A stretch of 64,000 nucleotides of DNA, taken from contig JAQSWM010000010.1 of assembly GCA_029266635.1 (NCBI GenBank), positions 46,230-110,229 of the forward strand. Direction: 5' to 3'. Under the pieces are notes generated by a model. It did no database searches and had not been told where the DNA came from. It worked only from the letters and a program-made list of their open reading frames with translations. This stretch comes from Sphingobacteriaceae bacterium. GTDB taxonomy: Bacteria > Bacteroidota > Bacteroidia > Sphingobacteriales > Sphingobacteriaceae. Position numbers and translations under genes: made by a program. Shown in pieces: positions 55,211 through 58,096 of the stretch (the stretch's first letter is position 1; every line of letters starts with the position of its first letter).

Positions 55211-56611
55211 ATGAAACCATTTTTAGACGAAAACTTCCTGCTGCAAAGCAAAACAGCCGAGCGTTTGTACCACGATTTTGCGAAGCAGATGCCGATCATA
55301 GATTACCACAATCACCTGATCTCTGAACAAATCGCAAACGACGTTACATTCGAGAACATCACGCAGGTTTGGTTGTACGGCGACCATTACAAATGGCGGG
55401 CAATGCGCACCAACGGCGTGAATGAAGAATATATCACCGGAAATAAAAGCGATTACGAGAAATTTGAGAAGTGGGCTGAAACAGTTCCTTACACGCTTCG
55501 CAACCCGCTTTATCACTGGACTCACCTGGAGCTTCAACGCTATTTCGATGTGCATGATCTTCTTTCGGGAAAAACCGCGAGATCTGTTTACGATACCTGT
55601 ACCTACAAACTACAACAGCCGGAGTACAGTGTCCAGGGCTTGCTCGGAAAAATGAATGTGGAGGCGGTTTGCACAACCGATGACCCGCTCGATTCTCTGG
55701 AGTTCCATCAGCAGATTGTTGCGCAGGGTGCCGATATTAAGGTGCGCCCGGCGTTTCGCCCCGATAAAGCCATGAATGCAGATGATCTGGGTGCATTGAA
55801 TGCCTACATTGACAAACTGGAGCAGGTTATCGATACGAGCATCAACAGTTTAGATGCTTATCTCCAGGCATTGAAGCAACGTCACGATTTCTTCGCCGTG
55901 AATGGATGTTCAGTTTCCGATCACGGGCTTGAGCAAATTTATGCCGAGGATTATAGCGACGAGGAAATTAGCTCTATTTTCAATAAGATCAGGAACAGGC
56001 AACATATTTCGCACACAGAAAACCTAAAGTTTAAGTCAGCAATGCTGTTCCAGTTTGCCATCTGGGATCATGCAAAAGGATGGGTGCAGCAGTATCATTT
56101 GGGGGCTCTTCGTAACAACAACACACGGATGTTGAGCAAGCTAGGCCCGGACACGGGCTGGGACTCAATAGGCGATTTCAGTCAGGCAAGACAGCTTTCC
56201 AAGTTTTTGAACAAGTTGGATAGTGAAGACAAATTAACGAAGACCATTGTTTACAACTTAAACCCGGCCGACAACGAGCTGCTCGCTACGATGATCGGGA
56301 ACTTTAATGATGGCTCCGTGGCCGGGAAGGTGCAGTTTGGCTCAGCCTGGTGGTTTTTGGATCAGAAAGACGGCATGATCAGGCAGATGAATGCACTTTC
56401 AAACATGGGCCTGATCAGCCGGTTCGTGGGGATGCTCACCGATTCAAGAAGCTTTCTTTCTTATCCGCGGCATGAATATTTCAGGAGATTGCTCTGCAAT
56501 CTTTTCGGAGAAGAAATCGAAAGCGGAGAGCTACCGAATGACATGGAATGGACAGGCAAGATCATCCAGGATATCTGTTACAACAATGCAAAGGAGTATT
56601 TTGGGTTTTAA
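55211..56611 (+). CDS. uxaC: Glucuronate/galacturonate isomerase
   Basis: UxaC isomerises D-galacturonate to D-tagaturonate (and glucuronate to fructuronate), the entry step of the pathway whose next enzymes lie just upstream. The 466-residue protein starts MKPFLDENFLLQSKTAERLYHDFAKQMPIIDYHNHL, the family N-terminus with its metal-binding H-x-H. WTHLELQRYFDV and FGSAWWFLDQKDGM follow. The frame extends to 55142 inside uxaA, but ATG 55211 with GAGGGG upstream is the right start. It is the last gene of the operon and is followed by repeats. Confidence 0.95.
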   Translation: MKPFLDENFLLQSKTAERLYHDFAKQMPIIDYHNHLISEQIANDVTFENITQVWLYGDHYKWRAMRTNGVNEEYITGNKSDYEKFEKWAETVPYTLRNPLYHWTHLELQRYFDVHDLLSGKTARSVYDTCTYKLQQPEYSVQGLLGKMNVEAVCTTDDPLDSLEFHQQIVAQGADIKVRPAFRPDKAMNADDLGALNAYIDKLEQVIDTSINSLDAYLQALKQRHDFFAVNGCSVSDHGLEQIYAEDYSDEEISSIFNKIRNRQHISHTENLKFKSAMLFQFAIWDHAKGWVQQYHLGALRNNNTRMLSKLGPDTGWDSIGDFSQARQLSKFLNKLDSEDKLTKTIVYNLNPADNELLATMIGNFNDGSVAGKVQFGSAWWFLDQKDGMIRQMNALSNMGLISRFVGMLTDSRSFLSYPRHEYFRRLLCNLFGEEIESGELPNDMEWTGKIIQDICYNNAKEYFGF

Positions 56612-56628
56612 TCCCTCTTGTTTTTGAC

Positions 56629-56831
56629 GTCACCTCGATCAGCCAACTGGCGGAGAGAGGTCTCAACCGTGTTATACAACGAGATTTCTCCTCCTGCCCA
56701 TCTCACCGGTGCCCCTAGCCTCGTCTGAAAGGACGCCCATCATTTTCCCCATCACCTCGATCCGCTAGCTGGCGGAAGAGGTCTCAACTGTGTTCGGGGA
56801 CGAGATTTCTCCTCGTACCTCGTCGGAATGA
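56629..56831. repeat. Two copies of a CACCTCGATC...CGAGATTTCTCC repeat
   Basis: Copy 1 (about 56630-56695) and copy 2 (about 56752-56815) both run CACCTCGATC, then a CTGGCGGA segment, GAGGTCTCAAC, GTGTT and ACGAGATTTCTCCTC. This is a known style of Bacteroidota intergenic repeat that normally ends in GGAATGACGGACAAAAG. The last copy is interrupted at ATGA by the IS110 element, and its missing end resumes at 58046. Confidence 0.75.
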
Positions 56832-56838
56832 ACTGTGT

Positions 56839-57805
56839 TTAAAAGCAAGTATTTTTTATATAATTTTCTTGATAGGGTGAATGGCTAGAAGCAACGGCGA
56901 AGGCTTGTTTCAGCAACTTATTTGCAACCGCTATGAGCGCTTGCCGTTTAGCTTTCCCTTTTGCCACTAACCGTTCGTATAGTTCTTTACAGGCCTTGTT
57001 GCACCGTTTGGCACTCCAGGCACAGACGTAGAGCATCGCTCGTATCCTGCTCATGCCCATCTTTGTGATCCTGCTTTTTCCTTTTACGCTTGTGCCTGAT
57101 TCAAAGATCCGGGGGCATAAGCCTATATAGGAGCTTAGTTGTTTGCTGTTCGGCAAAGCCACCGCTTAACACGATCAACAGCAGGGCGCTTTTCTTGCCC
57201 AAGCCTGGTATGCTTTGCAACTGCTGGTACATCTCTCCGTGATGTTGCTTGATAAGCGCCTGCATCTTTTGCTCTAAGGATACAAGTTGCTTTTCAATGG
57301 CCTGCCTGGCTGTAGCAATAGCCCTGGCCGCTTCTTTGCTGGTTTCCTCGTTAGCATCAAACGCTTCTGCCTGACGTATAAAGCTTGTTTTGCTCTTGTT
57401 CAGCAAGTCCATAGCTGCCTGCATTTGTTTTAACTGCAGGACATAGCCTTCTTCCGGCTTCCACAAGCTTGGGCGCTCTGCTTTTCCATATTCCGCTATC
57501 ATTTTAGCATCTTTCTTGTCTGTTTTTGCCCGTGTTAAGCGCATCTGGCAAAAGCGGCGGATCACTAAAGGGTTGATCACGCTTACCAAGATACCGAGCT
57601 CATGCAAGTAGCAGGCAAGCTTTAAGTAATAAGGCCCACTGGCTTCCATAACTGCCTGGCTGTTCTCGGGCAGCAATTTTTGCAAACCTTTAAACCCTTT
57701 TAAATCATTGCTGAACTTGTAATAACGGTAGCCTTCGCCTGACTGGATTGCTACATCAAAAAAAGCTTTTGAAATGTCAATGCCTACGTAATTGTTGAAA
57801 TTCAT
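56839..57805 (-). pseudogene. IS110-family transposase, frameshifted
   Basis: The N-terminal DEDD (RuvC-like) domain is intact: YVGIDISKAFFDVAI (first Asp), VMEASGPYY (Glu), RAKTDKKDAKMIAEYG (last two Asp). A coiled linker follows, then IPGLGKKSALLLIVLSGGFA. Near 57150 the frame breaks and the remainder (NSKQLSSYIGLCPRIFESGTSVKGKSRITKMG, then the C-terminal serine-containing SRIRAMLYVCAW) continues in another frame from 57162 to 56839. One base change would restore about 322 residues, the normal length. Either the element is dead or this is a sequencing error; IS110 elements do not normally use frameshifting. Confidence 0.88.
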
Positions 57806-57849
57806 AAATTTGTATTTAAGGATTATTTACTGTAGAAGAAACTGCTTTT

Positions 57850-57985
57850 CACTTATCAATCCTACATGCAGGCTCTATGCCTAATGAACTGTTCAAGTTG
57901 ATAAGCAGGAAGGCAAAGGGATTAGCATTTCGAACAGCCTTTATGGCTAATGACGGACTATAACCTTGCTCTTTGCCTTTTCTTC
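57850..57985 (-). ncRNA. Candidate bridge RNA of the IS110 element
   Basis: The minus strand upstream of the transposase folds into two stem-loops. The first has an outer stem AAGGCAAAG/CTTTGCCTT (57971-57979 with 57910-57918) and inner stem AGCC-ATAAA-GGCT. The second has CTTATCAA/TTGATAAG (57898-57905 with 57852-57859) and inner stem AGGC-ATAGA-GCCT. The internal loops carry guide-like matches. The first loop has GTCCGTCATT (target left, exact to the reconstructed target) and TCGAAATG (target right, 7 of 8). The second has ACAGTTCATT (donor left, exact) and TAGGAT (donor right, exact over 6). The order agrees with the published IS621 bridge RNA. The transcript ends are estimated. Confidence 0.8.
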
Positions 57986-58052
57986 TGCAACTAATTTAAT
58001 TTCTTTTTCCTCCCTTAAATACTTGCTGTTACAAACATAGGATGACGGACAA

Positions 58053-58096
58053 AAGCCCCTTTGCGCCTCAGCTTCTCTGCGCCTTTGCGTGAAAAC
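58053..58096. repeat. TTTGCGCCTCAGC...TGCGTGAAAAC repeat
   Basis: One copy of the CTGCGCCTTTGCGTGAAA family of intergenic repeats. It lies right of the IS110 element and overlaps the last codons of the glycosyltransferase gene, whose tail GFHAKAQRS is encoded by the repeat. Related copies form an array at 60341-60602. Confidence 0.65.

Follow-up and report, generated by a model that had tools for sequence, protein, structure and literature searches.

A frame-broken IS110-group element with a predicted two-loop bridge RNA, and variation of the right target guide with the insertion site among its relatives

The analysed window is a stretch of 64,000 nucleotides from a Sphingobacteriaceae bacterium (contig JAQSWM010000010.1, positions 46,230 to 110,229 of the forward strand). 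It contains an insertion sequence of the IS110 group, and a predicted bridge RNA with two loops lies upstream of the transposase gene (Table 1). The element lies between a plus-strand open frame ending at 56611 and a minus-strand open frame ending at 58068. Read on the minus strand, its left end starts with CCTATGTTTG and its right end closes with TTTTAAACACAGTTCAT, the flanks being GTCCGTCAT and TCCGACG, and its exact ends are ambiguous inside the common ATGA (56828-56831 and 58042-58045). The transposase gene is frame-broken, with its two domains in two different frames; in relatives, including P0001 and P0002, PF01548 and PF02371 lie along a single full-length open frame. A three-protein transposase profile matches the chains of the solved IS621 and ISCro4 transposases (E about 5e-45). 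The right end of the element lies only 11 nt past the stop codon and is longer in several relatives.

The initial annotation had proposed a search of the genome for further copies. This search was conducted, and neither sequence searches nor the RNA covariance model found a second copy of the element or its RNA, so that the element is single-copy as far as these searches show. Since only one copy was found and its transposase is broken, the window copy is either a relic or a recent arrival, broken in both cases. An imperfect inverted repeat (21 nt, 86%) lies close to the element ends (56834-56854 / 58017-58037). Subterminal inverted repeats were rejected as a family feature, with a mean score of 21.6 for own pairs and 19.4 for cross pairs over 30 genomes.

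Table 1. Features of the element and its insertion site, in window coordinates
Feature	Position	Strand	Remarks
IS110-group element	56828..58045	-	Termini ACACAGTTCAT / CATCCTATG also delimit the intact M. pedocola and M. terrigena relatives
Transposase fragment 1	57101..57805	-	RuvC-like DEDD domain PF01548, E 6.8e-22; 234 aa
Transposase fragment 2	56839..57162	-	C-terminal domain PF02371, E 1.6e-15; other frame
Predicted bridge RNA core, two loops	57849..57982	-	Covariance model R1, E 3.5e-24
Left target guide GTCCGTCATT	57949..57958	-	Loop 1, 5' side
Right target guide TCGAAATG	57926..57933	-	Loop 1, 3' side; fully matches CATTTCGA, the commonest form of the repeat
Left donor guide ACAGTTCATT	57883..57892	-	Loop 2, 5' side
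Right donor guide TAGGAT	57859..57864	-	Loop 2, 3' side
Left target half GTCCGTCAT	58042..58050	-	In flank
Right target half TCATTCCGACG	56821..56831	-	In flank
Left donor half ACAGTTCAT	56828..56836	-	Right end of element
Right donor half ATCCTATG	58036..58043	-	Left end of element
TATGTTTG	58032..58039	-	Left end; fits Bacteroidota -7 motif TAnnTTTG
TTG, -33-like	56846..56848	-	Right end; comes to lie 20 nt ahead of the -7 motif only once the ends are joined
Dispersed repeat core	56803..56831	-	TCATTTCGACGAGGTACGAGGAGAAATCT type in other copies; element at its edge

The region upstream of the transposase gene folds better than shuffled sequences (z -3.2), with 0 and 2 of 200 shuffles being as good. 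Covariance folding across relatives, which had also been proposed, showed that the two-loop structure is conserved: an alignment of 28 RNAs has two stem-loops with compensatory changes in 16 of 25 pairs. In the trimmed alignment of 27 RNAs, both loops are kept and 95.6% of the cells are paired, and 75 cells have changes on both sides compared to 20.5 in shuffles (0 of 500). Shifting the partner by 1-3 columns lowers the pairing in this alignment to 32-49%. The covariance model R1 was built from 27 sequences, the window's own among them. No Rfam family reached its gathering threshold over the predicted bridge RNA, and one tRNA was the sole match in the window. Two unusual left ends were observed among the relatives. 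The RNA of L124 (Paenimyroides viscosum) is without a right target guide and a left donor guide, and two similar apical hairpins (GGTC..GACC) appear fused in its left end, as if a deletion between them had made a chimeric loop. In L113 (Polaribacter marinus), a second left-end start CATCCTATG lies within donor-loop-like sequence at about 1053-1250, a pattern as if a piece of the element had been duplicated in tandem.

The coordinates and strand given by the initial annotation were correct on rechecking the sequence, and its four matches are present as written, with 10/10 letters for the left target, 7/8 for the right target, 10/10 for the left donor and 6/6 for the right donor. The agreement in order and strand sense with IS621 that it had claimed was also seen, with one match per target and donor half in the IS621 order. 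The summed longest exact matches of the four guides were reached in 0 of 2,000 letter shuffles of the left end. Taken singly, the sense matches are rare in these shuffles (1/2000 for the 10-base target match, 5/2000 for the 9-base donor match); neither antisense match is long enough for significance on its own, as 2000/2000 and 926/2000 left-end shuffles equalled them. The right guide TCGAAATG has one mismatch to its site CATTCCGA (TTCGA against TCCGA), which is explained by the guide being perfect to the commonest repeat form, TTCGA (CATTTCGA). The left match of 10/10 exceeds the family norm, as about six left positions are consistently matched in relatives. Since left-guide positions past -4 carry little signal in relatives, part of this 10-base match is fortuitous or private.

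The dispersed repeat that the element had been said to interrupt is real. There are 10 more partial matches in the genome (E 6e-7 to 0.03), a count that leaves out the insertion site and its neighbouring unit, and these copies comprise six of the form CATTTCGA, three of CATATCGA and one of CGTTTCGA. Two diverged units of the repeat-bearing region, spaced about 121 bp apart, adjoin the insertion site (window 56621-56833). The proposal that the guide provides many safe sites per genome found no support in the home genome, because the guided 10-mer GTCATTTCGA is not above its control there (11 matches compared to 14 for the reversed pattern); in addition, the element is present in a single copy with a broken transposase. 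Likewise, no enrichment was seen in the home genome for the 16-base site itself, searched with two mismatches at most (2 matches, control 5), or for GTCATTGCGA (6, control 8). Strong enrichment was found for GTCATGSTGA (33, control 2), and the home genome is therefore dominated by a repeat family other than that of the guide.

Counting the window's own genome, 15 of 301 family genomes carry a relative of the element. The closest two, at 52% and 51% identity, belong to the genomes of Mucilaginibacter terrigena and M. pedocola. Among named genomes, 62 loci were found, most of them from Bacteroidota by title, with Ignavibacteriota and Balneolales records included. M. terrigena and M. pedocola have identical left and right donor guide letters and identical element ends. 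The right target guide of M. terrigena, CTCACCATG, and its site, CATGGTGAG, both differ from those of M. pedocola, whose guides are TTGTCATT and TTCGAAATG. In M. pedocola, the element lies at 12 contig ends, six with a left flank and six with a right flank, which therefore represent about six insertions. The left flanks end with TGTCAT, and all six readable right flanks start with CATTTCGA (TTCGA). Three or more additional groups of IS110 type, more distantly related (L052-L068, about 25-35% identical), also occur in this genome, many of them near contig ends.

For the comparison of guides and sites across relatives, the right guide was picked by its distance from the donor loop, blind to the site. 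From 61 parsed loci, eight without a right flank of eight bases were left out, resulting in 53 loci; L124 and L130, whose donor loop is unreadable, are outside all guide counts. Over 32 genome labels, where two loci of one Pontibacter genome are labelled separately, 150.4 of 160 right-guide letters match the site, whereas guides dealt at random give 93.2 (sd 4.8, maximum 117.1) and reach the observed value in 0 of 20,000 cases. With one row per distinct right guide (17 distinct 5-mers), 79.1 of 85 letters are matched compared to 43.7 under the null. All five letters after CAT are matched by the guide at 40 of 53 loci. If six M. pedocola contig ends are set aside, whose eight bases are a common assembly overlap, the count is 34 of 47. 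The right positions +3 to +7 covary with the site, each at no more than 1 of 3,000 shuffles, and positions +8 and +9 are indistinct from these shuffles. On the left, position -3 covaries (26.1/32 compared to 14.9, 0/3000), and -4 and -6 do so weakly. Covariation on the donor side was noted by eye only and is uncounted. The initial annotation had made its reading depend on sites varying with the loop sequences, and this is what was found for the right guide and for position -3 of the left guide.

At 13 of the 53 loci, the site is imperfectly matched, and G.U pairing would account for five of these 13. Polaribacter Hel1_85, with the guide TGCGA, has only three perfect sites out of seven (3 TGCGA, 1 TTCGA, 2 TACGA, 1 TCCGA). 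Its genome contains 78 copies of GTCATTTCGA and only 11 of GTCATTGCGA; the guide-site match is looser here, yet it does not simply track motif abundance. The site of L087 fits a guide other than its own. In L114 (Sphingobacterium micropteri), the letters are unusual throughout: its site CATAGAAC is matched 8/8 by the right guide, and its left guide ATCGT matches the ATCGT of the left flank.

On the transposase tree (31 rows), a minimum of 20 changes is required for the right-guide states, and shuffled labellings need 19-21 changes (ten printed of 50). Since as many changes are needed as in shuffled labellings, relatedness does not explain the guide-site match. This tree is the second one, without L104 and without L127, which has 13 stops; the first tree gave 22 changes on 33 rows and had a nonsense long L104 branch. 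Both trees were built by a quick method, and several of their branches are weak. Change counts for the donor guides were set aside as unreliable on account of the parsing. Because guide letters vary together with the occupied sites across relatives, the bridge RNA likely steers these elements to their sites.

The guides also predicted sites at loci outside model building. The RNA covariance model has matches in 16 of 395 class genomes, a count that takes in the window's own, amounting to 30 model loci. The window copy (L132), three loci whose loops were already in hand (L133, L134, L136), one locus cut before the right flank (L135) and eleven low-scoring loci were excluded, resulting in a test set of 14 loci from five genomes, for which the guides were read before the sites. 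The guide matches all five site letters at 13 of the 14 test loci, namely six copies of CATTGCGA in one genome, five copies of CATCCCGG in another, L137, and L139, whose right end could be located only with two mismatches and has CCT in place of CAT. The sole imperfect locus, L148, has one mismatch. The guides CCCGG (five copies) and CCCCG were absent from the first set, yet they match their sites in the test set. Together, the conserved two-loop RNA, the covariation of guides and sites and this out-of-sample prediction strongly support the bridge-RNA reading given to the locus at the outset.

The insertion sites look like CGTC-tagged palindromic repeats. These are described with the tag CGTC or TGTC, a stem of 8-9 bp nearly always starting with AT, a loop of 4-5 nt and a CCA-like tail (PMC3733652). 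The same letters make up the left target half and the presumed core of the sites found here: left flanks end with TGTCAT (34) or CGTCAT (14) in 48 of 54 cases, a count that includes contig starts of M. pedocola and S. nematocida, where the letters are possibly assembly overlap. A matching 3' arm of a palindrome, defined as the reverse complement of the site's AT and three following letters, then C, within 100 nt, was found in 30 of 44 right flanks compared to 2% for non-cognate arms. Across relatives, this supports the earlier proposal that the guides are set to repeat families. The other 14 right flanks have no matching arm, the variant site of the window among them. As the comparison covered the tag, the AT and a five-letter 3' arm followed by C, the repeats are called CGTC-type here and are kept outside the four families of PMC3733652. 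The core is probably AT because AT is covered by both guides of both loops, although, judged from the junctions alone, it could lie anywhere within TCAT. AT also forms the near-constant first two stem letters of the site repeats.

The passages on these repeats in the 2013 survey describe them without a dedicated transposase and with only few fortuitous transposase associations (PMC3733652), whereas here an IS110 lineage inserts at such repeats. Within openly licensed PubMed Central text, no paper was found on IS110 guides following CGTC-type repeats.

A Bacteroidota-type promoter is predicted to be split over the two ends of the element and to form only in the circle. The Bacteroidota promoter consensus consists of TAnnTTTG at -7 and TTTG near -33 (PMC7366714, PMC2483708), the latter being reported in PMC7366714 as not found in Flavobacterium johnsoniae RNA-seq data. 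When the ends are joined, the distance from a TTG to the following -7 motif is exactly 20 nt in 33 of 35 genomes, compared to a mean of 4.0 and a maximum of 10 with shuffled right ends (500 shuffles). In the actual left flanks of inserted elements, a TTG at 17-23 nt is present in 4 of 35 cases. The -7 motif is exactly TAnnTTTG at 31 of 35 junctions, which is partly built into the search, as the left-end pattern demanded TA..[TC]T[TA]G or the full TATGTTTG; the TTG spacing was not built in. The 35 genomes are those in which both ends were found, with Litoribacter and Nafulsella among the elements outside. The RNA of IS621 is driven by a promoter rebuilt in the circle (PMC11208160). By analogy, the RNA would be transcribed from the circle, and the -33 part would be lost after insertion.

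Very probably, the window feature is a frame-broken IS110-group element with a predicted bridge RNA upstream of the transposase gene, which likely worked as IS621 does. Loop 1 matches both halves of the occupied site in all but one letter and loop 2 the element's own joined ends, and RNA and transposase would recombine the excised circle into the matching genomic site. At the level of sequence, there is one match per target and donor half in IS621 order, a conserved two-loop RNA, covariation and site prediction; from these we infer RNA production, circle formation and base pairing as the cause of site choice.

The most serious rival explanation, although a very improbable one, is that the transposase itself or a cruciform of the palindrome picks the site, and that the loop letters are similar only via repeat sequence gained at the element end. 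The sites are indeed often palindrome edges, as the matching arms indicate, and a right guide necessarily resembles the 3' arm of the repeat. However, M. pedocola has similar numbers of three motifs, 70 GTCATTTCGA, 65 GTCATTGCGA and 71 GTCATGSTGA (26, 12 and 15 for the reversed-pattern controls), and yet only the guided kind GTCATTTCGA is seen at its six readable right flanks. Furthermore, elements with DNA that is 86.7-89.5% identical differ in their right guides (L086/L087 and L085/L104), and the sites of L085 and L104 differ accordingly, one via a G.U pair, although the L087 site ignores its own guide. The match and the covariation also end sharply after +7, which argues against a longer stretch of the repeat having been copied; for this reason, the idea that the repeat had served as a template for the guide was rejected as unsupported. 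That the window holds an ordinary dead IS110 copy with a coincidental guide-site match is highly improbable. This copy is broken and single, and its antisense matches alone are not significant, but the combined match was not reached in the shuffles, and relatives show both covariation and successful prediction. An assignment to the IS1111 group, with subterminal inverted repeats of 7-17 bp and an RNA in the right end, could draw on the 21-nt inverted repeat near the element ends, and we give it next to no weight. The inverted repeat looks private to this copy and is not a feature of the relatives, the RNA lies upstream of the transposase, and the right end extends only 11 nt past the stop codon.

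IS621 and its relatives, with bridge RNAs, targets in repetitive palindromes and guide-target covariation across orthologues, have already been published (Durrant 2024, PMC11208160). As in IS621, the elements combine a recombinase of DEDD and C-terminal domains with a long left end carrying a predicted two-loop RNA, whose left guide matches the top strand and whose right guide matches the bottom strand; a second loop matches the donor, and a promoter motif is rebuilt at the joined ends. In the respective parts of that description, IS621 has a sigma70 promoter and the core CT, whereas TTG-20-TAnnTTTG, mostly Bacteroidota hosts and the presumed core AT are found here, along with the short right end and a target consisting of tag and stem of a CGTC-type repeat. 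Another difference is that natural variation falls mainly on the right half-guide here, with little change in the left. The seekRNAs of IS1111/IS110 elements (Siddiquee 2024, PMC11187229) are likewise RNAs of a non-coding end with short matches to both target strands, located upstream of the transposase in the IS110 type; the experiments described there were conducted on other elements. The mechanism is likely that of IS621, and what is distinctive is the openly visible natural retargeting of a half-guide along one repeat type.

Beyond the single locus, we consider it fairly probable that this mostly Bacteroidota bridge-RNA lineage is a specialised parasite of CGTC-tagged palindromes, with a near-fixed left half-guide, an AT core and a right half-guide that has been repeatedly rewritten, by at least 20 switches among 31 elements and with no detectable inertia. 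The left guide likely reads the (C/T)GTC tag and the right guide the five stem letters after the AT core. Since different repeat families have tag and core in common, an element could be moved to another family by changing some five letters of one half-guide, with donor and core left untouched. Retargeting would then be a single half-guide change that spares the donor, and the surviving elements would track the repeat families of their hosts.

Donor and presumed core are constant, as is the left guide for the most part, and the right guide has 17 forms in 32 genome labels and is still predictive of the site. Natural bridge RNA reprogramming can therefore be traced stepwise in these elements. 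The relatives represent a natural record of guide retargeting that is testable by five-letter swaps: if the reading is true, changing five right-guide letters alone would shift insertion from GTCATTTCGA to GTCATGGTGA. In addition, the relatives are a set from mostly Bacteroidota hosts that has a promoter type of its own, and they tie IS110 elements to CGTC-type repeats, for which the relevant passages of PMC3733652 name no dedicated transposase.
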